The notes beneath the pieces were generated by a model. The model had not been told where the DNA came from. It saw only the letters and a list, made by a program, of their open reading frames with translations, and did not search any database. From NCBI RefSeq assembly GCF_025791835.1, contig NZ_JAOXLP010000014.1, positions 48,570 through 112,569 of the forward strand: DNA of 64,000 nt, given 5' to 3'. Below, one piece after another: positions 46,427 to 63,423 of this stretch; within the stretch, counting starts at the first letter, position 1; every line of letters starts with the position of its first letter. This DNA is from Roseomonas xinghualingensis. Lineage in GTDB: Bacteria > Pseudomonadota > Alphaproteobacteria > Acetobacterales > Acetobacteraceae. Position numbers and translations under genes: made by a program.

Positions 46427-46988
46427 CAAACACACCACTGGATTCCACTGAAGCAAAATTCAAATCGGGATTCGCTTTCTCTGGAAAGCGGGCGTTTAGC
46501 TTCCACGCAGTCCATAAATCCGCAGCATTTTGAGAATCGCCGATCCACATCAGCACCTCTCAGCGCAGGAGCAATGGCATCGCTCTTGTACGGTCCTTCT
46601 CTCCAGCGCTTTGGCGGCAAGTCGCCCCTCCCCCGGCTTGGGCAAGGGTGCGTTCGCGCATGTTGCCGTCAGCGCCTGCGATTGGAAGAACATTGCGCGC
46701 ATTGTGGCCGCACAATGGCATGGCTGGCGCGTGATCCGCAGCCGGATACCTGCCTGTGCCGAGTGCGTGCTCGTCGGCCATGAACCACGAGCGGAGGCAG
46801 GCTGCCAACGATGGACCACAGGCGGGTCTCGCCATCATTAGTAACTGAGATAGCGCAGATTTATCTCATTTGGCCCGATGTCGTTTCAATTCACACTCTT
46901 TTCCAAAAAAGTTCACGCATGTGACTTGCATTATATCCAGGCATCAGTATGGTGATGAATGATTGGGTGATTTTTGATGGGGCACAAT
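46427..46988. other. Gene-free region with short unassigned frames
   Basis: About 560 bp without a convincing gene. Overlapping short frames on both strands (for example 46530-46841 forward and 46560-46838 reverse) give proteins of about 90-100 residues with no recognisable family and biased composition. The last 130 bp are AT-rich and include AAAAAAGTTCACG and TTGCATTATATCC, which could form a promoter for the DUF6165-type gene. The middle could be a decayed mobile element, but no transposase motif was found. Confidence 0.5.
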
Positions 46989-47387
46989 ATGTCGGTAGAA
47001 GTTCTAGTGCCAACTTCGATTGGCGAACTCGTAGACAAAATCACCATTCTCGAATTAAAAATCCGGTTCATAAACGATCCCAGCAAGCTGGAAAATGTTC
47101 GCCGGGAGTTGGACGCCTTAACGCAGATATTTGCTCCCATTCAGGAGAAGGCTCCTGCCGGGACCTCGGAGCTTATAGATCAACTCCGTGAGATCAATGG
47201 TAAGCTTTGGGTTGTCGAAGATGACCTGCGCGATCTCGAGCGGGCCAAGAGCTTTGGCGAAGACTTCATCCGCCTGGCTCGTGCGGTATATTTCACAAAT
47301 GACGAGCGTGCTGCGGTGAAGAAGAAGTTGAATATTCTCCTGGGCTCCAAGCACGTCGAAGAAAAATCCTACAGCGCCTACAACTAG
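46989..47387 (+). CDS. DUF6165-type small protein
   Basis: A 132-residue protein that matches the DUF6165 pattern as I know it: VPTSIGELVDKITILELK at the start, then NVRRELDAL, a LWVVEDDLRDLE helix, FIRLARAVYFTNDERAAVKKKLN and the ending EEKSYSAYN. Function is unknown; the family is often found beside TPR and glycosyltransferase genes, as here. The ATG at 46989 fits the family's N-terminus and has GGGG about 6 bp upstream; the ATG at 46977 is an alternative. It stands alone, with 252 bp before the next start. Confidence 0.75.
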   Translation: MSVEVLVPTSIGELVDKITILELKIRFINDPSKLENVRRELDALTQIFAPIQEKAPAGTSELIDQLREINGKLWVVEDDLRDLERAKSFGEDFIRLARAVYFTNDERAAVKKKLNILLGSKHVEEKSYSAYN

Positions 47388-48485: not shown

Positions 48486-48637
48486 CCTTGCAGACGCTGC
48501 GCTCCATATTCTTTTGCTTTTGCCTGAGCGCCTTTGGTGGATCGTACCTTCGCGGCTTGTCTGGCTCCAGCTTGCCCTGAAAAGCTTTTGGCGGTTGGCT
48601 TCCTTCGTATGAAGGGGCGCCGAGCAGGACTGAATAG

Positions 48638-51600
48638 ATGCAACTCCGCGGTCACATCGAAATCTTTGCCCGGCGCGGTGCTTCCGTCCATGTCGCAGGA
48701 TGGGTGCGCGCCCCAAAGGATCGCTTGGCGGCCGGAAAGGCACGCCTGGTTGTGTCTTGGGGCGAGGAGCGGCGCGAACTCCAACTCCGCCGGCTGCGAG
48801 ACCGGAGCGACCTACCAGAACAGGGCGACCTGCCCGCTGGCTATGGCTTCCAGCTTTTGATGGAAGTACCGGACAGCCGGGAGCCCGCTTCAGCTGTCCT
48901 GCTGCTTGATGGCGAAACCATGCCATTCTCCCCTGCCCCACTTCAGGAGACCCTGTTCCGGCCGCAGGGCCATTTGGAGGCCGCAGGCCGCAACGGTGTG
49001 AGTGGCTGGGTGCTGAGCACCCCGGCCGAGCCCCCCATGATCCTGCTGGATGATCAGCAGATTCCGTTGGAACTCAATATCCATCGTGCGGATCTGCCCT
49101 TCGATGATGGCTCGGAGAAGCCTCTCTTCGGCTTCCACATGCCACTTGAAGCTCTCGCCGGCGCGTTGCGACAGAGTGATCCAGGTGCCGTGCTGTTCGA
49201 CGAGAGGCCTCGTGAACTCGTCCTCCTTGCCTCCGGCGTGGAACTTTCCCGGCGCAGCGTCACCTTTCAACGCGAGATGATTGGAAAGCTCGAACGCGTC
49301 GTGGAAGGCGAGGCGAGCGGCTGGATCGCAGAGGCAGGACGTCCGGACGATCTGCAGGCGGTGGACCTGCTGCTCGATGGGACACGCTGGGCCACAGTTC
49401 AGGCCGATATCCTCCGCCCGGATCTTTCCCGGCACGGCATTGTCTATGGTGGCGGCGGCTTCCGCATTGCCCTGCCCCGCCGGCACCCCGGCGGGGGCGG
49501 TTCGTTGCACCTCGCTGCCCTGCCGCATCAGATGGCGAAGCCGTTGCCAGGCGCCGCAGAGTTGGAGAATTTGCCAGCCTGGCGTAAGGACCGCCAGGAA
49601 CTTGCGTTCCGGATGCCGAAGGATGGCCAAGTTCCGGTTTCGGTGGTTGTTCCCATCCACAACGCTGCTGCGGAGCTGGACCGCTGCATAGCGAGCGTCG
49701 TCCGCTATACAACCGCTCCGGCACGGCTGATTCTGATGGATGATGCCAGCACCCAGCCCGAGGTAACGGAAGTGCTGCAACGTTGGGCACAGGTCCCCGG
49801 CGTCGAAATCCATCGCAGCCCACGGAATCTGGGTTTCACACGCACCGCCAACCGCGGCATCCAGTTCGCGGGGCGCGACGACGTGGTGCTGCTGAACTCG
49901 GACACGGTTGTCGGCCCCGGCTGGCTGGATGGGCTGCGCATTGCGGCACGCTCTGGCCCGCGCACCGGCACCGCCACGCCGGTCTCCAACAATGCTGGCG
50001 CCTTTTCCGTGCCGGAGCTCAACGCTGCGAACCCCATGCCGCACTGGTTCGGTGTGGATGACATGGCACGGCTGGTGCGCGGCACCGCCCTCTCCCTCTA
50101 CCCGGTCGTGCCCACCGGACACGGCTTTTGCCTCTACCTCCGGCGGGACTGCCTTGATGCTGTAGGCAAGCTCGACGAAGCGGCCTTCCCGCGAGGTTAT
50201 GGGGAGGAGAACGACTTTTGCATGCGCGCCGCGCGGGCAGGCTTTGAGAGCGTTCTCGATGACAGGACCTTTGTCTGGCACCAGCGCTCCGCCTCCTTCG
50301 GCGAAGAGAAGGTGACGCTCAACGCCGAAGGCCGTGTCGTGCTCGACGAACGTTACCCGGAATACCGGATGTTGACGCGGATCTTCGAGACGGATCCCAC
50401 GATCCTTGCGGTGCGTTGGCGCCTGCGCCGCGCTCTGACGCAAGTGCGGGCTGAGGGCAGCACCCCTCGCCCACGCCTGCTCTTTGTGATCTCGACCGAA
50501 AGCGGCGGCACGCCTCAGACGAACCGCGACCTGATGGACGCTCTGGCTGACCGTTACGAGCCCTGGGTGCTTCGCTGCAACGGAACCGTTCTCACTCTGT
50601 CACGTCACAACGCTGCCGGGGTTGAAGTGGTGGAGGAGCACAGCCTGGAGCGGCCGATCGAGCCTGTGACCCACCGCTCCACGGAATATGACCGGCTTGC
50701 TGGCGACCTGATCCTGCGTCACGGTTTCGAACTCGTGCATATCCGTCATATAGCATGGCACGGGATTGGTCTGGCCGAGACCTGCCGGCGCCTTGGCATA
50801 CCCGTCATCTTCTCGTTCCACGATTTCTATACGCTCTGCCCGGTGACCAAGCTTCTGGATGCGGAAGGCCGCTTCTGTGCCGGCCGCTGCACTGAAGGAG
50901 AGCAGGACTGCACGCCGGAACTCTGGCCTGGCGAAGCGGTGCCGCCACTCCGGCGCCGATTTGCGCCCCGCTGGAAGTCCATGATGGCGGAAGCCTTGAT
51001 GGCCTGCGATGCTTTCGTCACCACCTCGCCCACTGCCCGTGACACGCTCCTGAACAACTTCCCCTTTCTTGCCGATCGGGACTTCCGCCTGATTCCGCAT
51101 GGACGCAGCTTTGCAAGAATGGAGACCTTGGGCGCCGAGCCGGTTCTTGATGAGCCACTGCGGGTGCTGGTGCCCGGCAATGTCTCCGATTCAAAGGGTG
51201 GTGGCCTGGTCGCGGCGATGGCCGCGCTGGATCGCGGGCAGGAAGTCGAGTTCCATGTGCTTGGTGGAGTTGATTCCTCCCTCACCGCCGCGCCTGGCAT
51301 CGTCCTGCATGGGCGCTATGATCGCTCGGACTTCGCCGCGCATGTCGCACGCATTCGGCCGCATCTCGGCGCCATCTTGTCGCTCTGGCCCGAAACCTAC
51401 TGCCACACCCTGACGGAGTGCTGGGCCACCGGATTGCCAGTTGTGGCAACCGCACTGGGCGCCCTGGCTGAGCGGATGGATGAAACCCCGGGCGGTTGGC
51501 TAGTGGACCGCTGGATGGCCCCGGAAGAGATGCTGGCGCTGTTACGACGCTTGCGCCGCAACCCAACGGAGGTGCGGGCTCGTCGAAACATGGTGCTGGA

Positions 51601-52630
51601 CTGGCAGGCCGGTATAGGCCGCCATCGCGACGCCGTGGCTATGGCCGTGGAGTATGATCGCCTCTATCGCGAGGTACTCGACCGCCGGCGCGCCTTCCGA
51701 GCAGCCCCCATGCAAACCCGGGTCATCCTGACGCTCGATCGTCCCGGCTCCTTCCTTTCCACACCGCTTGCAACGGCCACTCGCAACGCTGTGCCACGGC
51801 CCTTCATCTTCCGGCCTGTCCTACCTTCCTTCCCCTTCGGGGATGCGGCGGTGGGTTCCGCTGACGCGGTGCTGATTGCCCCAGATGCACTTCCTGCACA
51901 TGATTTGTCGGCCCTACGACACCACTGCGCTTCCGTCGGCCTGCCGGTGCTGGAGGTAGCGGCTGGCGAAGCCAGCCCTGAAAGTGGGGGGAACGAGGTT
52001 CTTTTCGTGGGACATGGGCTTGAGATGGCCTCGTGGCTTGCCGACGGCCCGGCTGATATGCCTCCGCAGCCAGACTCGCTGGGGCCTTGCCGCGTGCTGC
52101 ATGCCCTTGGCCCGGATCCTGCGGTGCTGCCGGCATTGCAGCCTATCTTTGAGCATCTCGCTGCCCTTGGCGTCGCGACGCTGAGCGTGCTCGGTGAACC
52201 ACGCCAGACAGGTAGCTGGTTCATCCCTATCGGGCCTGAACCGGAAGGCGCAGTGGAAACCCTGCGCCGCACGGCGCGGGAGCATGAAATAGGCTTGGCC
52301 CCTCCAGGACCTGCGATGCTGGCACTACAGGCGGCTGGCCTTCCCGTGCTGACCATTCCACAGGATTTGACGGCAGAAGATCCGGATAGGTCCCGTATGG
52401 CGCGGGATGCACTTCTGCGGGACATCGCAGAACTGGCGGCGGACGCTCCACGCCGCACCGCCCTGGGGTGGGATGGCACCCAGGTAGCCAAGCGCATCAT
52501 TAAGGATCATTCAGCCGGCCGCAGCTTCGACCGCCAACTCAGCAAGTTCCTTGACCAGATCTCCCCCATTGCCCAGCCCAATCCAGCCGAGGCGGTCGCC
52601 GTCGACCACGCGGTTTGGAGGGCTGGATAA
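48638..52630 (+). CDS. Multi-domain glycosyltransferase: three beta modules, GT2, GT4 and a C-terminal domain
   Basis: A 1,330-residue protein. Residues about 5-95, 111-175 and 216-285 look like three copies of a beta module with a starting G-x-(I/L)-E, a central GW(V/I), and in two of them R-x-DL followed by GF. A GT2 domain spans about 333-600, with VSVVVPIHNAA, DDAS at 369, LNSDTVVGPGWLD at 419-431 and GYGEENDFCMRA at 520. A GT4-like domain spans about 612-1010, with FVISTESGGTPQ, FSFHDFYTLCP (726-735), a Cys-rich loop and LWPETYCHTLTECWATGLPVV. The last 320 residues are unassigned alpha/beta sequence. The ATG at 48638 has AGGA 8 bp before it. It may add two sugars in sequence. Confidence 0.85.
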   Translation: MQLRGHIEIFARRGASVHVAGWVRAPKDRLAAGKARLVVSWGEERRELQLRRLRDRSDLPEQGDLPAGYGFQLLMEVPDSREPASAVLLLDGETMPFSPAPLQETLFRPQGHLEAAGRNGVSGWVLSTPAEPPMILLDDQQIPLELNIHRADLPFDDGSEKPLFGFHMPLEALAGALRQSDPGAVLFDERPRELVLLASGVELSRRSVTFQREMIGKLERVVEGEASGWIAEAGRPDDLQAVDLLLDGTRWATVQADILRPDLSRHGIVYGGGGFRIALPRRHPGGGGSLHLAALPHQMAKPLPGAAELENLPAWRKDRQELAFRMPKDGQVPVSVVVPIHNAAAELDRCIASVVRYTTAPARLILMDDASTQPEVTEVLQRWAQVPGVEIHRSPRNLGFTRTANRGIQFAGRDDVVLLNSDTVVGPGWLDGLRIAARSGPRTGTATPVSNNAGAFSVPELNAANPMPHWFGVDDMARLVRGTALSLYPVVPTGHGFCLYLRRDCLDAVGKLDEAAFPRGYGEENDFCMRAARAGFESVLDDRTFVWHQRSASFGEEKVTLNAEGRVVLDERYPEYRMLTRIFETDPTILAVRWRLRRALTQVRAEGSTPRPRLLFVISTESGGTPQTNRDLMDALADRYEPWVLRCNGTVLTLSRHNAAGVEVVEEHSLERPIEPVTHRSTEYDRLAGDLILRHGFELVHIRHIAWHGIGLAETCRRLGIPVIFSFHDFYTLCPVTKLLDAEGRFCAGRCTEGEQDCTPELWPGEAVPPLRRRFAPRWKSMMAEALMACDAFVTTSPTARDTLLNNFPFLADRDFRLIPHGRSFARMETLGAEPVLDEPLRVLVPGNVSDSKGGGLVAAMAALDRGQEVEFHVLGGVDSSLTAAPGIVLHGRYDRSDFAAHVARIRPHLGAILSLWPETYCHTLTECWATGLPVVATALGALAERMDETPGGWLVDRWMAPEEMLALLRRLRRNPTEVRARRNMVLDWQAGIGRHRDAVAMAVEYDRLYREVLDRRRAFRAAPMQTRVILTLDRPGSFLSTPLATATRNAVPRPFIFRPVLPSFPFGDAAVGSADAVLIAPDALPAHDLSALRHHCASVGLPVLEVAAGEASPESGGNEVLFVGHGLEMASWLADGPADMPPQPDSLGPCRVLHALGPDPAVLPALQPIFEHLAALGVATLSVLGEPRQTGSWFIPIGPEPEGAVETLRRTAREHEIGLAPPGPAMLALQAAGLPVLTIPQDLTAEDPDRSRMARDALLRDIAELAADAPRRTALGWDGTQVAKRIIKDHSAGRSFDRQLSKFLDQISPIAQPNPAEAVAVDHAVWRAG

Positions 52631-52687
52631 GCGCTGCTCCAGACGCAAATCCCATATCCCGCAAGTGCCCGCTTATCAAAATCGGAG

Positions 52688-53605
52688 CTACACCTCAAAG
52701 CTGGCAATGCTTGGCCAAACCGCCTTGGCGGCATGGTATTCTTCCCACCATCGCCGGTCGCTATGCCGGGCAACTGAGCTTGCGCTGACAGCCCAGGGCT
52801 TATCAAATATGTAATGGTGAACGAGCGTCTTCTTCTCCACCAATTCTATTCCGAACTGCCTTCCAAGATCATAGATGGGTCGGGTTAAATTTATCCACAT
52901 CGGCAACTCGCAAAATTTCGCTCCGCACTCCTGAAGAGCAAAATAAGTTAACCTTTGTTCGTATTGAGTCTTACCTTCCGCGGCCCGCTTAAACAATATT
53001 CCAACAAAATCATCGTTCATTAAATTTTTGCCGATTATAGAGAAGCCAGAATTAAAATTCACCGAATAATCAGCAAAGTTTTGTGCTCTGAATGGCCGCC
53101 GAGCCTGAAGAAATGCAGCAAGCTGGCTAGAGAACAGCTCGGAATCTTTTACCTTCTCCCAGAGGTCGCGAGGGATATTCGGCGCGGCGGCAAAATCAAA
53201 GACCACACCTTCAAGATTCGTAAAAAATTCGTCCAGAGAGGAAAACGCCAACATATCCGAATCAAAGTATATATTGTGATCATATCCAAAATCACGAAAA
53301 AGGAAAAATTTAAGCCAAGTGTATTTTGGTGCAACTTCGCATCTCTGTTTTTCCGGAATATGATCATTAGGCAAGCCCCGGTAACGCTCCAGGTAGTCCG
53401 TAGGAATCAGGCGTCGCACTTCAGAGACATTCCGAACGAATTCCTCATCCAGAACGGATTGATCATCACTGATGACTACAATTGGCATTCCAGCCAAGCT
53501 GGCTGTCTTCGACAGTGAAGAAAGTAAGGCTGCAAAACCCTTCAGATAAGCTCGGTCCAGCAGGAAAACCAAACAGCTTGCCTTGATAGAAAACTGCGCC
53601 ATCAT
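52688..53605 (-). CDS. Glycosyltransferase family 8-like protein
   Basis: A 305-residue GT-A type protein. The GT8 pattern is visible: CLVFLLDRAYLKGFAALLSSL at the start, YTWLKFFLF, the metal-binding NIYFDSDM (Asp115-Ser-Asp117), FNSGFSIIGKN, and HHYIFDKPW with the C-terminal metal His. Family members transfer glucose or galactose from UDP-sugars. Base composition is distinctly AT-richer than the upstream 1,330-residue gene, which suggests separate acquisition. Two adjacent ATGs (53605 and 53602) follow GGGAG. The 3' ends of this gene and of 48638-52630 face each other. Confidence 0.85.
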   Translation of the reverse strand: MMAQFSIKASCLVFLLDRAYLKGFAALLSSLSKTASLAGMPIVVISDDQSVLDEEFVRNVSEVRRLIPTDYLERYRGLPNDHIPEKQRCEVAPKYTWLKFFLFRDFGYDHNIYFDSDMLAFSSLDEFFTNLEGVVFDFAAAPNIPRDLWEKVKDSELFSSQLAAFLQARRPFRAQNFADYSVNFNSGFSIIGKNLMNDDFVGILFKRAAEGKTQYEQRLTYFALQECGAKFCELPMWINLTRPIYDLGRQFGIELVEKKTLVHHYIFDKPWAVSASSVARHSDRRWWEEYHAAKAVWPSIASFEV

Positions 53606-53696
53606 TGTTCTCCCGCGGACGCAACCACATAAATTAACTTCACATTAATACCAAATTCTTTTTGGTACCGATTTTGATTTTCTCGACGCGTTTACC

Positions 53697-53725
53697 GGTA
53701 GGCGCGGCACAGCGCCGCACCTACC
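53697..53725 (-). terminator. Strong hairpin downstream of the 1,328-residue transferase gene
   Basis: A 29-base inverted repeat with 12-bp arms (GGTAGGCGCGGC against GCCGCACCTACC, one mismatch) and a 5-base loop. It lies 88 bp past the stop of the gene at 53814-57800 and before the GT8 start, so it may end or attenuate that transcript. There is no T-run. Nearby 53650-53667 has a second small inverted repeat (ACCAAA and TTTGGT). Confidence 0.45.
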
Positions 53726-53813
53726 AGCCACAGGATAGTACCCAGGCATATACCTCGAGAGCTTATTCAAGCTGTGCCCCGCCAAACCTACGCGACAAGC
53801 TCAGCGGCGCATG

Positions 53814-56800
53814 TCAGTGCGGTAGCAGTTGATGCCTGCTGAGTTCAGACAGCACATGCTGCTCCACCCGGTCGTAAGAGAGCTCTGCGATACAACGGCA
53901 TTCGCCAGCCAGAAAGGTCTTGTGGCTGTTCGGCATAATTTCACATGGAGCGCAGTCCTTCGTGAGTCCAAGCCAGGAACTGCTGGAACGCAATGGGCCG
54001 CGCGTTGCCGGGTTTGTTGGCCCGAAAAGTGCTGTCAAAGGGATGGCAAGAGCGTTCGCAATATTCATGACGCCACTGTCATTGGAAATGAAATAGGAGC
54101 ATTCCATCATCTTGCCGATCATCTCAGCGATGGTGCCGCCCGTCATATCCAGCGTGCCCTCTACATACTCCTCTTCGATGCCAAAGGAAGCGACCTCGAA
54201 CCCTCTGCGCTGCAAGGACTGCGAGAGTTGCGCGTAGCCAGGCCACCTCTTGCTCATCCAAAAGCCCTCTTTTGAGCCTCCGTGGATGCCGATGCGCCGC
54301 CCGCCCGGCGGCCGCTGGTACACGTAGTCAGCAATGAAGTACTCAGTAATGTCCGCATCATCGTAGTCGATGTTCAGAAGGGCCTTCGCTGCCTCCAGGT
54401 TGAAAACCGTTTCATGGAACGGCCCCCCTGGTTCGAAGCTCATCCAATCACGTGAATAAGTCAGGCGCCTCGCCTGAAACGGCACTCGAGCACTGCCGAA
54501 GCTGTGCGTGATGAAAGCCTGATCATACTTCTTGCGCAGCACGGTCTGCCGCAACGAAAACACCGTGTTCACGTAGTTTGAGTTTTGCAAAAGGAACAGG
54601 CTGTTTTGATGGTCCTCGGCCACCACGATGTCGACCTTCCGGCCTGACCGCTTCGCGATGTTGCGCACCATTGGGCCGGCATGAAGCATGTTGCCAATAC
54701 CCGAGCCGATGCCCACCAGAATTTGGTCGCCTAGGCCGGATACGATTCCATGCACGGCGCGGCGTTGCCGGTCATAGGAATATCGTGAGGAATTCTCAGT
54801 GGCGCGCGCCATAAGATCTGCATAGTAGGTGGGCTCATCATAGATACGCCGTAGTTCAGCTGCCCAGGCCTGTGAGTCTTCCGGCAAGGCGACTCCAGAC
54901 TGTCGAAGCAGATAGGGAACATTGCCACGGTCGGAGCCGAGCACAGGTTTCCCATAGCGCTGCGCCTCAATGCAGACGCGGCTAAAGGTCTCGACGAAGC
55001 GATAACTCGGCACCGCCACGATCTTGCTGCGGTGGTAGAGAAGATCAATGCGATCGGTGCGCGGCAGGATAACAACGTTCGCGATGCCAGCTGCAGCGAC
55101 TGCGGCTTCCGCCTCTGCCTTGTCCGATTGGCTCGAGACAGCCACGAATAAGATATCCGGGCAAAGTTGAGCGACCGCGACTAGTAGATCGAAACCCTTC
55201 TCGCCCTTGGCATTAGCCAGCAGGACGAAATCCCGGAGATTCCCCAGAAGCCCGCCAGCCTCGTCCTCCAAATTCGCCGTTTCGGTGACATCGATATCGC
55301 GAGGCAGCGAGTAGATGATCGGCGTCCGGGCGTGGAAGCATTCTTCCAGCACCGCCTGCGTATACTCCGAATTGGAGTAAACGCTCGCAGCTTGCTGGAG
55401 CACATAGCGAAAGGCAGGGCGTGGAACTGGATTGCGGTCGAGATCGAGGAAGAACCGCATATCGCCTTCCACCTGCCCCAGACAGTCACGCCAGAAGTGT
55501 ACGCCGTAAACGAAAGGAATATCGAGGTACTCAAGAGCCGCTGCGACTTGGTAGCCAAGGCCGGAGAGCACATGCACAAGTGTCGGCTGAACTTCCAGGA
55601 AATAGCGGCGCAGGGCTGCCGGTGTTTCGTCGACGAAGCAGAAGGCCCGCCCCCCTTCCACACCCGATTGTCCTACCATTTCAGGCCGCGTGCCGACTAT
55701 GACAGGATCAAAACCCATGTCCTTATAGTGCTCGGCCATACTGTCGAGGAACTGCTCACCGCCCCCGAACTTGATAATACCATGCTTGGACATTACGACC
55801 ACGGTACCGCGCTTCTGCGCCACTCTAGAACCTGCGCGATCAGAAGCAGGTTGAAGCTGCCGGCTGGTTAGATCGATGGTCGAGGTAAGAGCGCGGTTGC
55901 GGGACGTAACCTCGGGCAGCTCCGCCAGGCTAAAAGCAAGGCCAGCTTCAGCAAATCCGACCAACAGATCGCGGCGCCACAGTTCCACTGGAATGCCGGC
56001 GTCATCGGCTATGAGCAGCCGGCCGCACCAACGAAAACCCTTTTCACGCAACCGGCTAAGCCAGTCGGCAGAGAGCACCGGCGGCGCGGAACCTGACGCA
56101 TTAAGCAGCACCCATTCCGCGGACAAAGCGCCAAGCGCCTGAAGGGGATGAGCCCCAACTGACGTACCGGAAATCGGCGTTTGCTGTACCTGCCCCGCTA
56201 TGAGGGCGACGCAGCTGCCCCCTATGAGGCCATTGCTGCTGTCGATCGACAGGATCACCACAGTGCCGGCGTTGTCAGCGGAATCGTCTTCGACCAGGGT
56301 GCGGAGCGAGCGCAGCTGATAGGTAGCGCCCTGATGCCCAGGATCAATCTGGATGACCCGCTCAGCAACGGCCAACGCGTCCCGAACTCGGTTTTGAGCC
56401 AGGAAGATTTGGCCGCGAAGCATCAACGCGTCAACAAAGTCGGGCTTGAGGGCGAGCAAGCGGTCGGTTTCGAGAAGCGCTTCAGAGAAGCGTCGAAGGT
56501 CGAAGAGATTTCTTGCAGCGCGCAGATACGTCCCAGGTCCCTGTTTGGGATCGGCAAGGATAGCAGCCTGCAGAAGAGCAGTGCTTTCCTCTAGCAGAGC
56601 AGTTCGCTTAGACGCTTCCGTCGTCTTATGGAGGGCTAGGCGCCGTAATATGGTGCCCTGCTCACCCAGAAACTGGGCATTCTGCGGTTGGAGCTCGAGC
56701 GCACGGCGACCATGGCTAACCGAGGCATCCAACTTATTATCTCGCGCAAGGGCCACAGCCGCGTAGAATTGGATGTTGGGGTCATCCTCTCCAATCGTTG

Positions 56801-57800
56801 CTAGACTACTCAAAAGCTTGGCTGCCGTGGAGTATTCCTGAGTGTAGATGTAACTGCGGCCAATCATGGTAAAAAGCTCGAGCTTTTTTTTTCGCGTTAA
56901 CCCCACAGCTTGGTAGAGGAGATTCAAATCCCCCCACTTTTTTTGCTTAAAAAGCTGCTTTGCTAATTTTAGAAAAAGATTGTCTTCCAATCTCGTCCAT
57001 ACATCGACAAGCGTCTGCAGTGACACTTCGGCCAAAAGGTCTTCTATGGTTTTGGCTATTTCTTTTGAATTTTCCTTCCCTTTGGTGGCAATTTTTCTGC
57101 CCTTTTCAGCCGCATTCAATTCTGCATCCACCAATGGGCCGTTAGATGCTCCTGGGGAATCTGCATGCGCTTTCTGATCTGTAGAGACAGTGCTTGGCTT
57201 TGATCGTTTGTCATGGGCCGCATGATGCGACGCATGGGCCAGCGCTGTCGCACCTCCGCCCGAGGCCGTCTGCTTCTTCTCTACGCCAGGAGTCGTCTGA
57301 ACAGGTAACTCCTCCTGCCGTGGTGACCCTGATTGCGGTTTCCGATGCGCGGCACTTTCGTGCAGGGATAGCAACTTGATGATTGAAGTGTGATGAGCTG
57401 GTGAGGTGATGACTGGCCCTGCCTGCGGATCGAGCAACAGAACCGTCAACAGCTCGTGCCAGCGGCGCGCATTCCGCATCAGGGACGCAGTCTGCTCCAT
57501 AGGCTTAGCCACATCGATGGCCCAGCGCACGAGAGTCGCTGGCGGTGACGAGTGGCGTCGCTCGTGCGGAAGCGTCTGCTGCGCAACAAGACGAGGCAGC
57601 ACTTTTTCAAGGAACTCTTGAGACGAAGTAATGCGGCGAAGTAAAGCGCGCGGAGGCATTTGGGCCATCTCGGCAACAGTTCCAGCAGGGCTAGCATGCC
57701 TCCCTAGAAGCAGAGCAAATGCCGCTTCCACGGCAGAGATATCAGGTTGTCCGTCCAAAAAATCGTCCAATTCCATAACCTCAAGTCTGCGACGCAACAT
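53814..57800 (-). CDS. TPR-GT4-GT9 fusion glycosyltransferase
   Basis: A 1,328-residue protein with several parts (positions approximate). Residues 20-70 resemble a DUF4214-type segment (AAFALLLGRHASPAG, SSQEFLEKVLPRL). Residues 135-255 are a low-complexity His/Ala/Lys/Ser linker. Residues 255-505 are TPR repeats. Residues 665-1020 are a GT4-like unit (GIIKFGGGEQFL, VHVLSGLGYQVA, YGVHFWRD, SNSEYTQAVLE, VPSYRFVETFSRVCIEAQRYGKPVLGSD). Residues 1025-1328 are a GT9-like unit (LVGIGSGIGNMLHAGPMV, ISNDSGVMNIANALAIPLTALFGPT, then CAPC and CRC). ATG 57800 is used; TTG 57815 and ATG 57776 are alternatives. The GT4-GT9 part is paralogous to 58357-60648 and the TPR part to 60678-61988. Confidence 0.85.
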   Translation of the reverse strand: MLRRRLEVMELDDFLDGQPDISAVEAAFALLLGRHASPAGTVAEMAQMPPRALLRRITSSQEFLEKVLPRLVAQQTLPHERRHSSPPATLVRWAIDVAKPMEQTASLMRNARRWHELLTVLLLDPQAGPVITSPAHHTSIIKLLSLHESAAHRKPQSGSPRQEELPVQTTPGVEKKQTASGGGATALAHASHHAAHDKRSKPSTVSTDQKAHADSPGASNGPLVDAELNAAEKGRKIATKGKENSKEIAKTIEDLLAEVSLQTLVDVWTRLEDNLFLKLAKQLFKQKKWGDLNLLYQAVGLTRKKKLELFTMIGRSYIYTQEYSTAAKLLSSLATIGEDDPNIQFYAAVALARDNKLDASVSHGRRALELQPQNAQFLGEQGTILRRLALHKTTEASKRTALLEESTALLQAAILADPKQGPGTYLRAARNLFDLRRFSEALLETDRLLALKPDFVDALMLRGQIFLAQNRVRDALAVAERVIQIDPGHQGATYQLRSLRTLVEDDSADNAGTVVILSIDSSNGLIGGSCVALIAGQVQQTPISGTSVGAHPLQALGALSAEWVLLNASGSAPPVLSADWLSRLREKGFRWCGRLLIADDAGIPVELWRRDLLVGFAEAGLAFSLAELPEVTSRNRALTSTIDLTSRQLQPASDRAGSRVAQKRGTVVVMSKHGIIKFGGGEQFLDSMAEHYKDMGFDPVIVGTRPEMVGQSGVEGGRAFCFVDETPAALRRYFLEVQPTLVHVLSGLGYQVAAALEYLDIPFVYGVHFWRDCLGQVEGDMRFFLDLDRNPVPRPAFRYVLQQAASVYSNSEYTQAVLEECFHARTPIIYSLPRDIDVTETANLEDEAGGLLGNLRDFVLLANAKGEKGFDLLVAVAQLCPDILFVAVSSQSDKAEAEAAVAAAGIANVVILPRTDRIDLLYHRSKIVAVPSYRFVETFSRVCIEAQRYGKPVLGSDRGNVPYLLRQSGVALPEDSQAWAAELRRIYDEPTYYADLMARATENSSRYSYDRQRRAVHGIVSGLGDQILVGIGSGIGNMLHAGPMVRNIAKRSGRKVDIVVAEDHQNSLFLLQNSNYVNTVFSLRQTVLRKKYDQAFITHSFGSARVPFQARRLTYSRDWMSFEPGGPFHETVFNLEAAKALLNIDYDDADITEYFIADYVYQRPPGGRRIGIHGGSKEGFWMSKRWPGYAQLSQSLQRRGFEVASFGIEEEYVEGTLDMTGGTIAEMIGKMMECSYFISNDSGVMNIANALAIPLTALFGPTNPATRGPLRSSSSWLGLTKDCAPCEIMPNSHKTFLAGECRCIAELSYDRVEQHVLSELSRHQLLPH

Positions 57801-58356
57801 GGTGCTGAGATGCAATCTTAACGCCGACCATGACAGGAGCGTAGTTCATTATCCGAACAGTGCTAAGACCCCGCCTTTGATACCGAGCTCATGGGAGCTC
57901 AAGTTCCTCGCAACGGTCCATGAAATTTCATTATCAGAGCAAATACCGCGAACAGGCCACCTCGTAGCATCGCTTCAATGCGCCGCGGCTAACGCTCGCT
58001 AGCACTTGTCGCCCACGACTCCACGATCAACTCGCCCCGCACTCCTTGATCGTGAAAGTTGCAGGCCCCGCCTAGCGTGAACCATTAGCGGTCAGGAGAT
58101 GACCCCAGAGTCCTGTGACAAGCTACGCCACTCATGCACTGCTCAGCGGTGCTCTGCTTCCATGAGCACCTCAGCCGCGCGTTTGCTGGGTCTTTCCACG
58201 TCATTCTTTACACTATCGGGCCTTTTCCGCGTCCACATCCATCACGGCGCACCTACCTTAAGCGGCTACACTGCGATCGAGTTGCTATCAACAACCGTAG
58301 CCACCACTCATCGCCGCTCTCGTTCCATCGATGCAGAGCATAACCACTTCTCTTGG
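57801..58356. other. Gene-free region between two paralogous transferase genes
   Basis: About 550 bp separating the start of the 1,328-residue gene from the 3' end of its paralogue. Only short frames are present. One reverse frame of about 33 codons (near 57999-58100) ends in an ordinary-looking peptide but has no family match. A GAGCTC-CATG-like palindrome occurs at 57886-57901. The promoter of the 53814-57800 gene must lie here. It may be a junction left by the duplication. Confidence 0.4.
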
Positions 58357-60648
58357 TCAGCTGGTCAAGCCAAGCGCCTTCAGAACCGCAGCTTCCACGG
58401 CATCGACCGTAATATCGCCGATGCAATGACATCTTCCCTGAAAGAAAGGTCCCTCGCGGCCCGCCAATTCACATGGAGCGCAGCTCTTCTTGAGCGCGAT
58501 ACTCATGCTTGCCGGGCCAAGTGGCCCCCTTGTCCGAGCCTCGGTCGGAGCAAAAAGCGCCACGAGGGGAATGCCAAGGGCATTGGCTATGTTCATGACA
58601 CCGCTGTCGTTTGACACGAAGGCCCCGCAGGCCAGCATGCGTGTAGCCATTTCCTCTAAGCTTCCGCCTGTCCAGTCCAGCGTTCCCGGTACAAACTCGT
58701 CAGCACTGCCGAATGAGGCAACACGTAAGCCATGCCTGCCTAGTGCAGCGGCCAGGTTAGCAAAGAACGGCCATCGTTTGGCGGACCAAGCCCCTGTTTT
58801 TGATCCAGCGTGCAAACCGACCAAGCCGTGCTTACCTGATTTCCACCGCAAATCGGCGAAGAAGGCCTGCCTGACATCATCCTCTTCGTAAGGAATACCT
58901 AAGAGCGCCTCAGCCGCCGCCAAATTGAACTCTGCCTCATGAAACTTGTGCGATGCGCTGAACCTATCCCAGCTCCGAGACTGTACAACACGGGTTGCAC
59001 GGAAAGGCGGGAGCAAAACACCAAAACTATGGGTAAGAAAAACCGTGTCGTACTGTCGGCGAACGGGAACATCATTGAGTAAGAAGGCATGATTCACGTA
59101 TTCGGAATTGGCGACGACGGCCAAGGCGGCCTTTGAATCGCCAGCAACCACAACATCGATTCGTGAATTTAAATGGCGGGCAACATTCCGGATAAGTGGC
59201 GTCGTGTGCACAATATTGCCCACCCCAGAGCCGACGCCCAAAAGAAACCGCGCTGTAGTACCCTCGATGAGCCGGAGCAAACGGTCCTTCTGATTACGGA
59301 AAGCATACGCCTCGGAGTTCCTTATCGCGGCTTGAGACCGTGCTTCCCAATAAGCCGGGCAGTCAAAGAGTTGGCGAATTTCACTTACCCACAGTTCTGG
59401 GTCAGAGGGGAGGCTAATTCCGGACTCACGCAACAGAAACGGAACGTTACCACAATCAGACCCAATAACCGGCACGCCAAAACGTTGAGCCTCGATGACA
59501 ACCCGGCTAAAGGTTTCAACAAACTGGTAGCTTGGCACGAGCACGACCTTTGCTGCCCTGTATAACTCAGCCATATTGGCGCTGCGTTGAAGAATCAGGA
59601 CATTTTTCAGGCAGGCAGCAGATTTGGCTGCTACTGCAGCATCCACCCCTGACTGGCTAGCAATACCAACAAACTGAATGTCGGGCAGGCGCTTAGCAAG
59701 CTCAATAAATAAGCCGTAGCCTTTGTCAAATCGGCAATTTGCCAGCAATACGATGGATTTGCCCGTTTGGGATGCATGCTTCTCGAGCACAACGTCATCC
59801 GGGACTGAAGGGATGACGTTGAGGCGCGCGCCAAAGGTTTGTTCCACGACTGTCCGCGTGAATTCAGAGTTTGCATAAACGGCATCAAAATCGGCAAGCA
59901 AGGCATGGAAACTGGGTTGGGGCAGATGGCCCGCTGGGCAATCAGGAAAATAACCACCGCTGGCTGTTGTCGGATAAAACAGCTCACGCCAAAAATGAAC
60001 ACCAAAAACAAGGCGGGTCCCAAGAAAACGTAATGAGACACTCACCTCATAGCCAAGACCTGATAGAACATGCGCAAGAACGGCCTTGGTGGATTGAGCC
60101 AAACGAAACAAGGCGGCCGGGTTTGGCGAGATGTAGACATAGGGGATGCCGTCTTTGGCGCCACTTTCACCGGCGCGCTCCGCCCGAGTTCCTACAATAA
60201 GCGGATCATATCCCAAATCTCTATAAAGACGAGCCATCTGTGAGAGAAAATGCTCAGCGCCACCAAACTTCTGAACGCCAAATTGGGAAATGAGCAGTAC
60301 CGTTCCGCGTGTTTCCTCGCGCCGTGCAATGAGGACTCGCCTCGCTGGTTGCAGCGACACCAAGTGGCGGTGCTCACGAGGAAATCGTGCAGCACAGTTT
60401 ATCAGTTCCGAGATTGGCGCCCTGTTATCAACAATCTTGTATTCGATAATTTGCTGAAGATAGGCACGCCGCCAGAACCGGACTGGTTCAGCATCATGCT
60501 CCTGGAAGATATCCACCACGGCAGCACGCTCTGGCAGGTCGGCCAGGGCTTCCATCGCCAACATCACTTCAGGTGAAAGATGCGCCCCTGGCAGGCCAAG
60601 CCACTCTGGCGCTGTTTCCAGATAATCCTGCCAATTTTTCTGCGTCAT
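58357..60648 (-). CDS. GT4-GT9 fusion glycosyltransferase
   Basis: A 763-residue protein with a GT4-like unit at about 114-460 and a GT9-like (heptosyltransferase-type) unit at about 473-763. Shared landmarks with the paralogue: GVQKFGGAEHFL, LAHVLSGLGYEVS, FGVHFWRELF, VPSYQFVETFSRVVIEAQRFGVPVIGSDCGNVPFLL (in parts), LLGVGSGVGNIVHTTPL, VSNDSGVMNIANALGIPLVALFAPT, then CAPC and CHC. The short N-terminal 110 residues are unique. The GT9 unit in known proteins adds heptose to lipid A core or related glycans. It is 29 bp downstream of the TPR gene, so the two form an operon that mirrors the single fused gene to its left. Confidence 0.87.
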   Translation of the reverse strand: MTQKNWQDYLETAPEWLGLPGAHLSPEVMLAMEALADLPERAAVVDIFQEHDAEPVRFWRRAYLQQIIEYKIVDNRAPISELINCAARFPREHRHLVSLQPARRVLIARREETRGTVLLISQFGVQKFGGAEHFLSQMARLYRDLGYDPLIVGTRAERAGESGAKDGIPYVYISPNPAALFRLAQSTKAVLAHVLSGLGYEVSVSLRFLGTRLVFGVHFWRELFYPTTASGGYFPDCPAGHLPQPSFHALLADFDAVYANSEFTRTVVEQTFGARLNVIPSVPDDVVLEKHASQTGKSIVLLANCRFDKGYGLFIELAKRLPDIQFVGIASQSGVDAAVAAKSAACLKNVLILQRSANMAELYRAAKVVLVPSYQFVETFSRVVIEAQRFGVPVIGSDCGNVPFLLRESGISLPSDPELWVSEIRQLFDCPAYWEARSQAAIRNSEAYAFRNQKDRLLRLIEGTTARFLLGVGSGVGNIVHTTPLIRNVARHLNSRIDVVVAGDSKAALAVVANSEYVNHAFLLNDVPVRRQYDTVFLTHSFGVLLPPFRATRVVQSRSWDRFSASHKFHEAEFNLAAAEALLGIPYEEDDVRQAFFADLRWKSGKHGLVGLHAGSKTGAWSAKRWPFFANLAAALGRHGLRVASFGSADEFVPGTLDWTGGSLEEMATRMLACGAFVSNDSGVMNIANALGIPLVALFAPTEARTRGPLGPASMSIALKKSCAPCELAGREGPFFQGRCHCIGDITVDAVEAAVLKALGLTS

Positions 60649-60677
60649 CCTTGCCGCGGCTCGATCGTGATCAGTGG

Positions 60678-61988
60678 CTATGCAGAAGTGGCATCAATAT
60701 TCACCGAAGGCAGCAGCCCAACCTTAAACGCACTACCTCGCCGCGCCTCAAGCCAGCGCTCCAAAATACGCACTGTAGAAGCGGCGGTATCGTTGGCCGG
60801 ATCGCTCTCCGCTGCTTCCTGGGCTGCCTGAAGCGCTTCCTCAATTCGATCAAGGCGCACAAGGACACGCGCACGCTCGATACTGAGCGCATTCAAATGA
60901 GGCGAGCGGCGTCGCGCCTCATCCAATGCTTCCAGTGCCTCCACGAGCATGCCCTTTTGCTGCAAAAGGCCGCTCAGATCACGATGGGGCCGCCCGTCGC
61001 GCGGCATAAGTTCAGCGGCACGCTTGAGCAGATCTATAGCATCTTCGATTAACTCAGGATGCGGAGCAAGAACACCAAACCCACCGTTAACAAGCCGAGT
61101 GGTCACACGTGCCAGTTCAAAAACATACTTCGCTTCTGAACCCTGTAAGGACACACATTTCTCAAGAACGCGGCGGGCTTCGTCATAACGCTGAAGATTT
61201 GCCAACGCGACGCCAAGATAGAATAATGCTCCATGATGCTCCGGCGCATGACTTTCAATCCAACGCAGTTCCCTCTCGGCTTCCTGCATTCTTCCAAGAT
61301 ATATGTAGGCGCGCCCGATATAAAGTATTATATCATGAGTGTTCTTGATGGATGCGCGATGGGCTTGAGCGGTAACAACCACCTTCTCCCAATTTTTCTT
61401 TTTAAACTCACCCTCAATGAGGGCAACTGCATCCGACGGGTCAAATCCAGCACCAGGGTTCTGTGCTGTGCTGTCCTCCATCTTATGCAAAGGAGTCGAG
61501 TGTTCTGCCTCGGCTCCAGGTGAGTTGACATATAAGATATTTGGCGACTGGCCTCGTGGTATCTGCAAACCTAAGGTTCCGTGCAAATCCAAATGACCAG
61601 GCTTAATGACTTGCACACTTTTTTCTTGGAAGATGCCAACCTCCTGAATGGAGTTGGGAACTCGTAAAGTTGCCTTCTCCAGGAGATCTCCACAACGCTC
61701 AAATTTTTGCTTTTTTTGGCTTTCCAGCCCTATTTCAACGCCCTTGTCCCGATAAATAACTTCAACTTCAATCGGACTGGAAGGGCCTTCCCAAGAAAAA
61801 GGCACGAGGATCTCTTCGCCCCATGCCCCGTTCCTGAAGTCATTAACAACAATGACCTTCTTCTCGCAATTGGGCTTGATGTGGACGACGATATCATCCC
61901 CGAGAATATAATCGACGCTATGCCCACCACTAATGGCCGAACTTGTAAAAAGAAATTTCCGGCTGGTGGTGACGCTCATGTCCATCAT
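60678..61988 (-). CDS. TPR protein with N-terminal galectin-like domain
   Basis: A 436-residue protein. Residues about 22-115 match the galectin pattern: GDDIVVH (His36), VIVVND (Asn49), then exactly seven residues on AWGEE (Trp56, Glu59), followed by PFSWEG and a beta-rich tail. Canonical galectins have His, Asn, Trp and Glu at the same relative order and the same Asn-Trp and Trp-Glu spacing; two of the usual Arg positions are replaced here. Residues about 185-410 are TPR repeats (IGRAYIYLGRMQEAERELRW, LFYLGVALANLQRYDEA), close to the TPR part of 53814-57800. The start uses the first of three ATGs within nine bases. The gene is upstream of the GT4-GT9 gene by 29 bp. Confidence 0.8.
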   Translation of the reverse strand: MMDMSVTTSRKFLFTSSAISGGHSVDYILGDDIVVHIKPNCEKKVIVVNDFRNGAWGEEILVPFSWEGPSSPIEVEVIYRDKGVEIGLESQKKQKFERCGDLLEKATLRVPNSIQEVGIFQEKSVQVIKPGHLDLHGTLGLQIPRGQSPNILYVNSPGAEAEHSTPLHKMEDSTAQNPGAGFDPSDAVALIEGEFKKKNWEKVVVTAQAHRASIKNTHDIILYIGRAYIYLGRMQEAERELRWIESHAPEHHGALFYLGVALANLQRYDEARRVLEKCVSLQGSEAKYVFELARVTTRLVNGGFGVLAPHPELIEDAIDLLKRAAELMPRDGRPHRDLSGLLQQKGMLVEALEALDEARRRSPHLNALSIERARVLVRLDRIEEALQAAQEAAESDPANDTAASTVRILERWLEARRGSAFKVGLLPSVNIDATSA

Positions 61989-62298
61989 TCCAGGAAGTTA
62001 GCTTCAGGATTAGGCAGCGTGCCGACCATAAGTCAGCGCACCCAGTGGACTAACTCATGTGCTTTGATACGCATGCGGCCCCCAGTTCAGAACCAGGGGC
62101 CTTCGGGAGCGCCCAGTGATCCTGCTCATGAGTTTCGCAAAGCGCCCCGACTGCCACCAGAAGACCATTCATCATAAGGTCATGGACCTGGCAGACCAAA
62201 CCGAAGGGTCATCAATTCCGGCCACACACCAACTCGGCTAGATACTCTGGGTCGATCCAAGCCAATCTGCAGGAAGAGACCAGCCACTGCCCTTCAGC
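61989..62298. other. Intergenic region
   Basis: A 310-bp stretch between the 3' end of the GT90 gene and the start of the TPR gene, both on the minus strand. It holds only short frames with stops, no clear hairpin with a T-run and no recognisable element. The promoter of the TPR/GT4-GT9 pair is expected near 62000-62080. Confidence 0.45.
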
Positions 62299-63423
62299 TT
62301 ACGAAAAGCCTCCCTTTTCGGCAGCATAAGTCTTATTGTAAACATCAACAACTCGCGAAAGGATTTCAGCCCGAAGTTCCCCGTCGGCAATAACTCGGCT
62401 GGATTCTTGCGCGCGGGACACGATTTCTTCACAGGTATCTGCGTTCGATTCGGCCCATGTCAGAATTTGGTCCAGGTGAGAAAATCCGCCGGCAACAGGC
62501 AGGTAGTGATACCAAGGATGGAAATGGCAGTCGTAGAATGCTTCCCAGGGATAGGATTCTCTTATTACCAGTGAGTTCGTCTCTGAGTGCCATGGAAATG
62601 ACGTAGCCCAGTCGTTACCGGAAATTTGCATCAGATACCGAAAATTCAACTGATCCTCTCGCCTGACAAAATCCAGTGTCAGGGCATCGATTTCCTTGAT
62701 CTCACGGAAGTAACTCAGACGCTTCGGAAAAACAAATCCGACGTTAAATCCTGCTTTTCCAAAGTTGTCCCGTACAAACCGGAAGCGCGGCAGTGTCTCC
62801 AGGTGCGACAGCATATCGTCCCGTGAGATCTTTCCTTCAATATAATCCTTGACGACAAATTGAATATTTTTCTTTTTCCCGTTTACCAGACTGTGTCCTA
62901 CCAAGGCGCCACGCCAGAAAAGAGATGCTTCCTTCTGCCCGAACGAAAGCTTGTCAACGATTCCAGAGCCGGCAAAACGCTCATCACCAATGTCGTGAAA
63001 GCCCTTAAGCGGCCACAAGATCGCGTTCACGGCCCGGGACATTCTATTGAACTGAAAAACAGGAAGCGGAGATTCGGTCGAAGAGACACTGTCCTGCATA
63101 TCGAATGCAGCATTTGCATTAAGCCCATGCGCGAAAACCGACGACAGAAAATCGGAGTTCCGGTAGCCCTTGGAATTTCCACCAACGCTGGAGTAAGACC
63201 ACTGCTGACCCCGCTCCTTGCTGGCATCAAAGGAGAGGCCGCTCCACTTATCGGAAGGATGAACCGTCATGCGGTCAACATCGACAACCCCGAAAAGCGA
63301 GCTTCTACGCCAGGCTTCCTGCTCAACCGCCGCAGCAAGTGTCGATTTCAGCTTGCGGTAATCTCCCAACTGAAACGCGACCTGCCTTTCGATGGCCACA
63401 AGACAGCTCTGGCTTCTGGACAT
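62299..63423 (-). CDS. GT90 (CAP10-like) glycosyltransferase
   Basis: A 374-residue protein of the CAP10/GT90 type, which includes xylosyl- and glucosyltransferases in LPS and capsule synthesis. Seen: a SLFWRGALVG block (about 168-176), PRFRFVRDNFGKAGF, YLMQISGNDWATSFPWHSETNSLVIRES (263-290 as separate motifs with ISGND and LVIRES), and HPWYHYLPV near 302-310, the family's conserved C-terminal region. The ATG at 63423 begins the frame. The gene is AT-richer than the left half of the window. It stands alone, between the TPR pair and a transposon-scarred edge. Confidence 0.85.
   Translation of the reverse strand: MSRSQSCLVAIERQVAFQLGDYRKLKSTLAAAVEQEAWRRSSLFGVVDVDRMTVHPSDKWSGLSFDASKERGQQWSYSSVGGNSKGYRNSDFLSSVFAHGLNANAAFDMQDSVSSTESPLPVFQFNRMSRAVNAILWPLKGFHDIGDERFAGSGIVDKLSFGQKEASLFWRGALVGHSLVNGKKKNIQFVVKDYIEGKISRDDMLSHLETLPRFRFVRDNFGKAGFNVGFVFPKRLSYFREIKEIDALTLDFVRREDQLNFRYLMQISGNDWATSFPWHSETNSLVIRESYPWEAFYDCHFHPWYHYLPVAGGFSHLDQILTWAESNADTCEEIVSRAQESSRVIADGELRAEILSRVVDVYNKTYAAEKGGFS

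Follow-up and report, generated by a model that had tools for sequence, protein, structure and literature searches.

Fused and split forms of a TPR-GT4-GT9 glycosyltransferase in one Roseomonas gene cluster

In FlmG, the TPR part binds flagellin and the glycosyltransferase (GT) part does not (PMC7591256). TibC has Asp-110 as candidate base and cysteines at positions 339, 342, 358, and 370 (PMC4358343). Two GT partners act jointly in the adhesin O-glycosyltransferase GtfA-GtfB (PMC6291802), and a galectin-type domain is joined to a glycosyltransferase in plant GALT galactosyltransferases (PMC8121149). Among the matches listed from the open-licence literature, no TPR-GT4-GT9 protein is described.

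Here, we analyzed a locus of Roseomonas xinghualingensis in which TPR, GT4, and GT9 domains occur together twice. The window, that is the whole stretch of DNA analyzed, comprises 64,000 nucleotides. A preliminary description gave the coordinates and lengths of the three relevant open reading frames correctly but omitted their strand: all three (53814-57800, 58357-60648, and 60678-61988) lie on the minus strand. The cluster contains the following features:

46974..47387, plus strand: DUF6165 gene (PF19662), found close to the module in relatives, with a fusion of the two in locus L037
47634..48485, plus strand: GT2 glycosyltransferase (Pfam), retained beside the fused gene in two relatives (L014, L035)
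48638..52630, plus strand: GT2-GT4 protein, 1330 aa (Pfam), with homologues close to the module in relatives
52688..53605, minus strand: GT8 glycosyltransferase adjoining the module (Pfam)
53814..57800, minus strand: fused TPR-GT4-GT9 protein, 1328 aa, 43% identical to the product of 58357-60648 over the GT part
56310..56972, minus strand: TPR region within the fused protein, residues ~277-497 (TPR models of Pfam and NCBIfam; aligned to 60678-61988)
54741..55808, minus strand: GT4 part of the fused protein, about residues 665-1020 (PF13439/PF00534/PF13692; family HMM)
53847..54731, minus strand: GT9 part of the fused protein, about residues 1024-1318 (PF01075; family HMM)
54690..54692, minus strand: Asn codon N1037, in the place of the canonical GT9 catalytic Asp (alignments)
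58357..60648, minus strand: stand-alone GT4-GT9 protein (split form), 763 aa (Pfam; AlphaFold2 model)
59260..60306, minus strand: GT4 part of the split form, about residues 115-463, with EX7E = E378/E386
58378..59253, minus strand: GT9 part of the split form, about residues 466-757 (PF01075; Foldseek matches)
59215..59217, minus strand: Asn codon N478, in the place of the canonical GT9 catalytic Asp (alignments)
60678..61988, minus strand: TPR partner of the split form (436 aa), its gene lying 29 nt upstream of that for GT4-GT9 (Pfam; tree)
61686..61925, minus strand: galectin-type domain of the TPR partner, about residues 22-101 (PF00337; profile against PDB galectins)
60729..61436, minus strand: TPR region of the partner, about residues 185-420 (Pfam; HMM; fold)
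62299..63423, minus strand: GT90 (CAP10-like) glycosyltransferase upstream of the split pair (Pfam)

Domain assignments and homology confirm that the same set of TPR, GT4, and GT9 is present in the cluster twice, once fused and once split. GT4 Pfam models and PF01075 scored above their cut-offs in both GT proteins, and TPR models matched the products of 53814-57800 and 60678-61988. The C-terminal unit is GT9 by PF01075 in the fused as well as the split form (52.8 and 60.3 bits, cut-off 22), and the unit preceding it combines GT4 Pfam models over cut-off with a retaining GT-B fold. The AlphaFold2 model of the split GT4-GT9 protein has a pLDDT of 93.2 and a pTM of 0.93. The GT9 structures 3tov and 1psw are Foldseek matches of this whole two-domain model, with the aligned range unspecified, and a second structure comparison concerned mainly residues 113-468. 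The fused protein may start at 57815 or later; a version of 1320 aa is present in the protein database. A DUF4214-like reading of its N terminus was a by-eye impression without Pfam support and was dropped.

The GT4-GT9 regions of the two copies, previously described as sharing one layout, are identical at 312 of 724 aligned positions (43%, 595 bits). Their TPR regions had also been reported to match and show 24% identity over 246 aa (E = 2e-10). Some similarity is expected between any two TPR proteins, so we included control TPR proteins in a comparison with a profile built from the TPR parts of 14 fused relatives. The best domains of all 13 split-form TPR partners reached 143-240 bits, those of all 11 controls 14-66 bits; P0103 was excluded from the controls since it carries a GT9 domain. 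The fused TPR part of the window itself scored 110 bits. On whole-sequence scores, the control L040 gene 4 reached 238 bits via many summed repeats (best domain, 42 bits) and the other controls -3 to 100 bits. The best-domain scores rule out chance similarity, and both premises of the preliminary description, related TPR parts and a C-terminal GT9, hold.

In a GT4-GT9 tree of 83 rows, from which fragments and copies of loci were left out, 23 of the 25 stand-alone rows, including that of the window, form one clade (support 100) nested among fused forms, which argues that the split pair of the window arose by one fission. The other two, P0061 and P0063, lie within a fused clade and therefore represent either more than one fission or cut contigs; both may be truncated by contig ends. 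A corresponding clade groups the 13 TPR partners (support 99) in a TPR tree of 65 rows, which was restricted to rows with more than 150 matched HMM positions and hence includes two of the 11 controls. Four of the 13, belonging to the other split sub-clade, start at position 2-11 of the fused N-terminal HMM. From this phylogenetic pattern, the two separate proteins seem to derive from a cut through the long fused one. GT4-GT9 proteins are present in 6 of 397 family genomes, the own genome included. The joining of GT4 to GT9, which had been called unusual, is therefore rare, but it characterizes a family with dozens of members. A scan of genome contigs retrieved 15 loci with an alignment as query and none with a single protein.

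Two same-layout copies within 9 kb could point to a tandem duplication that happened recently in this genome and gave way to a fission or a fusion. But forcing the copies to be sisters cost 419 log units and was rejected (p-AU 9e-73, in a test that took 12 of the 23 stand-alone rows). These 12 rows grouped with 13 fused relatives at support 97, in a position apart from the fused clade of the window. The placement of the two copies in separate deep clades does not support a simple duplication, and we regard a recent one as next to impossible. The locus contains two ancient paralogues of one enzyme type, and the term "duplicated" used for the module before is appropriate only in this older sense. 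The preliminary description had also taken the fused and split copies as natural evidence for a complex of TPR protein and transferase. This argument is sound and gains strength from the fission tree and from gene order: the TPR gene lies directly upstream of the split GT4-GT9 gene in all seven readable genomes, and the two genes overlap by 4 nt in L005, L006, L007, and L018, while those of the window are 29 nt apart. Co-expression alone, without a physical complex, can suffice to keep an operon order, but the single-chain origin indicated by both the GT and the TPR tree, the four overlaps, and the unbroken adjacency make this explanation improbable. Retained adjacency and fission thus support, short of proof, a complex between TPR partner and GT4-GT9 protein.

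A third form is cut between the two lobes of GT4 (GT4N and GT4C), at family HMM position ~165-193. This cut recurs in P0069, P0070, P0083-P0087, a set of 21 proteins, and L016, which makes an assembly error unlikely, although P0084 may simply be truncated by its contig. A TPR-GT4N gene adjoining a GT4C-GT9 gene was found at one locus, L016.

The catalytic pair of GT4 enzymes is EX7E, whereas GT9 enzymes use an Asp in a G-D motif of the N-lobe. In an alignment of 68 of the 86 matches, the EX7E pair (E378 and E386) is intact in all 68 GT4-GT9 proteins, and all 68 carry Asn at the GT9 catalytic Asp position (N478; N1037 in the fused copy). The same Asn is found in 21 of 21 GT4C-GT9 proteins. Asp occupies this position in WaaF, WaaC, WaaU, two GT9 proteins of the same genome (L046, L047), the TPR-GT9 protein L042, and 48 of 49 close relatives without GT4. 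Two GT9 proteins without an attached GT4 (P0175 and L008 gene 2) also have Asn. P0117 and P0124 were counted as TPR-GT9, though automatically filed with GT4C-GT9; both have Asp, some 200 residues precede the match, and the Pfam domains listed for them include no GT4 family. In the C-lobe of GT9, K617, K624, E651, N680, D681, S682, and M685 are conserved in 68 of 68 proteins and four cysteines (723/726/740/742) in at least 67, whereas the His following NDSGxM is mostly Asn (65 of 68).

Based on these observations, we propose that the module is a transferase guided by its TPR part, with GT4 as the catalytic domain and GT9 in a binding role, a model that we give an even chance of being correct. 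In each paralogue, presumably cytoplasmic, the TPR superhelix would hold the acceptor (or a scaffold partner) beside the two GT-B domains, and the GT4 half with its intact EX7E would form the glycosidic bond. Because of the Asn in place of the catalytic Asp, the most likely role of the GT9 half would be binding, whether of a sugar nucleotide, of the growing glycan, or of the acceptor, and not normal heptosyl-type transfer. One lineage of Roseomonas-like bacteria would have severed TPR from GT4 in the fused protein; there the halves stayed neighbors, with overlapping genes in several genomes, and presumably reassemble. If so, nature provides a series, namely one chain, TPR cut off, GT4 halved, and GT4 absent, that could show how a TPR arm and an accompanying GT domain contribute to a glycosyltransferase, and the Asn/Asp state of GT9 would predict which domain does the chemistry. 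The GT9 Asn, the form split inside GT4, the DUF6165 link, and the galectin-type domain had all been missed in the preliminary description.

The Asp-to-Asn change is no proof of inactivity, and the strict invariance of the Asn argues for a function, possibly catalytic. The module could be a bifunctional enzyme that attaches two sugars in turn, the first by GT4 and the second by GT9, with the Asn tolerated or used in another inverting mechanism and the TPR part serving as a tether only. Dead domains usually drift, so that the strictly conserved GT9 C-lobe favors this explanation, as does a second tandem GT protein in the same cluster, GT2-GT4. The uniform Asn at the catalytic Asp position of GT4-GT9 and GT4C-GT9 proteins and the mostly replaced His speak against it, and we consider it possible but rather doubtful. 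For the acceptor, a polysaccharide, LPS, or lipid-linked glycan, with the TPR part helping to assemble a biosynthetic complex, has in our estimate about equal chances of being right or wrong. GT2, GT2-GT4, GT8, and GT90 genes are direct neighbors; the same window also has an epimerase gene and, further away, genes for MBOAT and AlgX-like proteins; GT and ManC-type genes are found near relatives; the TPR-GT9 relative L042/L065 adjoins dTDP-rhamnose-type genes (PF00908, PF04321, PF00483). Against this, Wzx, Wzy, and polysaccharide ABC export genes were absent among the annotated neighbors, which cover part of the neighboring genes. A secreted or surface protein, glycosylated in the cytoplasm in an FlmG-like or BAHT-like O-glycosylation, is a serious but somewhat less than even possibility. 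It is suggested by the FlmG-like TPR-GT layout, by the OGT TPR domain being among the best structure matches of the TPR part, tied with others, and by an RTX gene that separates the fused from the split module in both Pararoseomonas clusters. But full-length RTX matches were found in only 2 of 17 genomes searched and not in the genome of the window at 1e-30, which does not support the RTX protein as a general acceptor, and flagellar families were unmatched among the Pfam-scanned part of the neighbors. Nothing on DUF6165 was found in the open-licence literature.

The N-terminal domain on the TPR half is of galectin type in the sub-lineage of the window and, judged by sequence profiles, is related to galectins. 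The window protein reached 24.8 bits with PF00337 (cut-off 22.1), as the only one of seven members to pass, and a profile of all seven matched PDB galectins with E = 1.1e-10. A profile of the other N-terminal domain type matched no galectin. The sugar-contact residues of galectins are H, N, R, N, W, E, and R. H36, N49, W56, and E59 are invariant in 7 of 7 members, while three of the seven contacts differ in the window protein: Lys38 replaces an Asn, and two Arg positions are not kept. The modeled domain is of moderate confidence (10-residue means of 64-82 over residues 21-100), and in a structure search with the TPR partner model the match list was filled by TPR folds. Since only 7 of 13 TPR partners compared carry the domain, it is not essential to the system. 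PF00337 occurs in 4 of 299 family genomes, the own genome included. In other genomes, galectin-type genes adjoin GT4-GT2 genes or are fused to a GT2, which also favors a glycan acceptor. The galectin fold is known mainly from animals, fungi, and plants, and this relationship would give it a bacterial setting in glycan-building loci. Among the matches listed from the open-licence literature, no bacterial galectin in a glycosyltransferase locus was reported.

A more far-reaching reading, which we consider unlikely, is that GT9 is a companion (Asn) where GT4 is present and catalytic (Asp) where it is absent, that Asp was regained in some lineages, and that in the lineage of the window the split TPR half also acts as a galectin reading the glycan under construction. 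Catalytic duty would then move between two GT-B domains. The Asp regain would imply a GT4 that was lost after an initial cut between its two lobes. The AU test of a regained Asp gave p = 0.0121 with a mixture model (72 rows, leaving out P0175 and three long outgroup rows), but 0.579 (66 rows), 0.419 (without P0157), and 0.137 (long branches removed) with a simpler model. In the 66-row analysis, the free search missed a better tree with all Asn rows together; one tree was built from a hand-picked subset of 76 rows. As p varies from 0.0121 to 0.579 with rows and model, we do not regard the regain as a demonstrated direction.

Compared with known systems, the fused form resembles FlmG of Caulobacter, an N-terminal TPR and a C-terminal GT-B domain in one chain (PMC7591256). 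FlmG has one GT domain, whereas the module has GT4 plus GT9 and no flagellin link was seen, the comparison being one of layout and not of aligned sequences. The catalytic domain of the GT41 enzyme OGT (PF13844) was unmatched at E 0.1, although TPRs are present. TibC/AAH (BAHT) share with the module a heptosyltransferase-like GT-B enzyme with four conserved cysteines, and the BAHT acceptor is a protein (PMC4358343). TibC, compared by its description only, has Asp-110 as candidate base, the module has Asn at the GT9 base position, and the parts described for TibC include no TPR or GT4. The cysteine spacing (339/342/358/370 versus 723/726/740/742) leaves a loose likeness to the four-Cys iron finger of TibC. 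Plant GALTs are eukaryotic GT31 enzymes predicted in the Golgi membrane, whereas the galectin-type domain described here sits on a bacterial TPR partner. The GT9 heptosyltransferases WaaF and WaaC share PF01075 and the C-lobe motifs with the module, and 1psw is among its fold matches, but the module differs by its Asn and the attached GT4, and its CxxC...CxC motif is absent from the three Escherichia coli GT9 proteins aligned. GtfA (4pqg) and SdgB are also among the fold matches; the GtfA-GtfB pair belongs to different families, and GtfB is reportedly catalytically inactive. Alg13-Alg14 is a GT-B enzyme cut between its two lobes, as are the GT4N and GT4C forms, but the GT family differs, and here each half carries an extra domain, either TPR or GT9.

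The window carries one fused and one split copy of the same set of TPR and GT4-GT9 parts, which confirms what the preliminary description had observed:

53814..57800, minus strand: TPR-GT4-GT9 protein of 1328 aa (fused copy)
58357..60648, minus strand: stand-alone GT4-GT9 protein of 763 aa
60678..61988, minus strand: TPR partner of 436 aa

The same description took the two copies for a simple duplication. A tree was built from 83 GT4-GT9 regions, and 23 of its 25 stand-alone forms fall into a single clade (support 100) that has fused forms around it. The fused copy of the window belongs to another clade, and the two remaining stand-alone rows, the database proteins P0061 and P0063, likewise fall outside. 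A topology that makes sisters of the two window copies is worse by 419 log units (p-AU 9e-73), which rules out their recent duplication. The TPR parts were compared as well. Thirteen TPR partners of stand-alone forms make up one clade (support 99) apart from the clade of the window's fused protein (support 98), and they match the TPR parts of fused relatives from the sister group with 143-240 bits, compared with 14-66 bits for other TPR proteins (11 controls). An HMM of the fused N-terminal part is matched from position 2-11 by four of the 13 partners, and these four therefore represent nearly the whole former N-terminal half. The split form thus arose by fission, not by recent duplication. 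The core of the earlier interpretation stands: the existence of fused and split forms is a natural argument for a complex of the TPR protein with the transferase.

In all seven genomes with a visible upstream side (the window and the related loci L005, L006, L007, L018, L035 and L041; L013 begins inside the gene and was left out of this count), the TPR gene immediately precedes the stand-alone GT4-GT9 gene, with a 4-nt overlap in L005, L006, L007 and L018. The distribution of the module is rare and patchy. With the own genome included each time and two candidates scored per genome in the larger searches, it is present in 4/15 genomes of the genus, 6/397 of the family and 4/299 of the order; in a class sample, the search was positive in 2/385 genomes, the own one and one with a TPR-GT9 protein without GT4. 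Both Pararoseomonas genomes harbor fused and split forms within one cluster, like the window, and all three proteins also appear to be encoded on one contig of 9101 bp, going by the identical lengths of the contigs they come from. Very long TPR-GT4-GT9 proteins (1621-2021 aa) are found in L040 (9400-15465), L011 (14822-19687) and L038 (6654-11525), those of L040 and L011 with long TPR arrays according to Pfam.

Alignment with WaaF, WaaC and WaaU revealed an Asp at the GT9 catalytic position (478 of the 763-aa protein) in these three enzymes, in two other GT9s of the own genome and in the TPR-GT9 protein of L042, versus an Asn in all 14 GT4-GT9 proteins aligned with them. In a larger alignment, comprising 68 of the 86 GT4-GT9 search matches, Asn occupies this position in 68/68 and the EX7E pair of GT4 is intact in 68/68. 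A search with L042 yielded 49 close relatives with GT9 but without a GT4 match (P0107-P0150, P0154, P0161, P0171, P0175, P0176), 48 of which carry Asp, the exception being P0175, and 21 proteins starting between the two GT4 lobes, all with Asn. In four alignment columns, each group has a letter shared by 70% or more of its rows, and this letter differs between the groups. Of these four, position 478 is the sole full separator (Asp 19/19 versus Asn 46/46), and position 686 (His versus Asn) shows the same leaning (15/19 versus 39/46). Judged by these counts and the separation at position 478, the GT9 catalytic state tracks the presence of GT4. An Asn-type GT9 without GT4 is found near the N terminus of a different, 992-aa protein, the second gene of L008 (2996-5974); this gene is located a few genes away from a fused TPR-GT4-GT9 gene. 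Topology tests on whether Asp was kept or regained favoured regain once (p-AU 0.0121), and three further tests (0.579, 0.419, 0.137) gave no decision.

A third architecture was identified in L016, from a Brevundimonas MAG, where GT4 is cut between its lobes and the two genes overlap by 14 nt:

L016, 4837-6981: TPR and GT4 N-lobe
L016, 6968-8431: GT4 C-lobe and GT9

The same cut recurs in P0083-P0087 (N side) and in P0069, P0070 and the 21 proteins found with L042 (C side), some of which (P0162, P0163) are encoded on contigs of hundreds of kilobases. Alg13-Alg14 is a GT-B enzyme likewise cut between its lobes. The halved GT4 and the GT4-linked Asn/Asp state of GT9 are additions to the earlier picture.

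A further addition, based on profile matches, is a galectin-type domain at the N terminus of the window's TPR partner, which matches PF00337 above the curated cut-off. Six relatives share it, and PF00337 is detected in 7/7 at E up to 0.34, with only the window protein passing the cut-off; none of three tested partners with the other N-terminal domain matched PF00337. A profile of the seven domains retrieved galectins from the PDB at E 1.1e-10, and among the 60 matches listed of 122 up to E 5, 59 are named galectins and one is a fibre protein. The profile of the other ('GWxxDxxxP') domain gave three PDB matches (best E 0.12), with no galectin among them. Residues H36, N49, W56 and E59, which we take to align with the sugar-contact residues of galectins, are unchanged in 7/7 domains. 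The 'GWxxDxxxP' domain also recurs at the N terminus of glycosyltransferases of these clusters, namely in window gene 48638-52630, where it was recognised by eye, and in P0020, P0021, P0027, L006 and L007. A family-wide search at E 0.001, a threshold that may overlook weaker members such as the relatives of the window partner, found PF00337 in 4/299 genomes, own one included. In the remaining three genomes, the domain occurs in glycosyltransferase loci of Acetobacteraceae. L058 (9467-11749) combines a galectin-type domain and GT2 in one chain, and in the two others galectin-type genes adjoin GT4-GT2 genes:

L056, 5336-6385, 6657-7784 and 17512-18582: galectin-type genes
L057, 3525-4535 and 9555-10691: galectin-type genes

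For plants, a passage of PMC8121149 describes galectin domains joined to galactosyltransferases.

The module is surrounded by genes for DUF6165, GT2, GT2-GT4, GT8 and GT90 proteins, a neighbourhood that fits protein glycosylation no better than polysaccharide synthesis. GC3 is 0.48-0.71 in picked ORFs from ∼46.5 kb on and mostly 0.75-0.90 in the remaining window; this drop suggests that positions 46500-64000 are an acquired glycan island. The right end of the window is the end of the contig. BLAST detected relatives of the DUF6165 gene (46974-47387) near the module in L007, L014, L017, L018, L019 and L036, and in L037 (10505-14554) DUF6165 forms the N-terminal part of a TPR-GT4-GT9 protein in a single chain. 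A Pfam search of the protein encoded at 45071-46426 gave no match; it has a signal-peptide-like start and by eye resembles a right-handed beta-helix.

As candidate acceptor we considered an RTX-repeat protein, whose gene separates the fused from the split module in each of the two Pararoseomonas clusters:

L005, 2277-3788: RTX-repeat protein, 503 aa
L035, 9171-10703: RTX-repeat protein, 510 aa

Full-length matches were found in 2 of the 17 genomes searched, and the window's genome gave no match at 1e-30, so that this protein is not supported as a general acceptor. For the module itself, we infer a mechanism in which transfer would be done by GT4, while the Asn-type GT9, whose C-lobe is otherwise strongly conserved, most likely binds the sugar or the acceptor. 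The TPR arm would recruit an acceptor or a partner, by analogy to FlmG, for which a passage of PMC7591256 describes binding of flagellins by the TPR part and not by the GT part.
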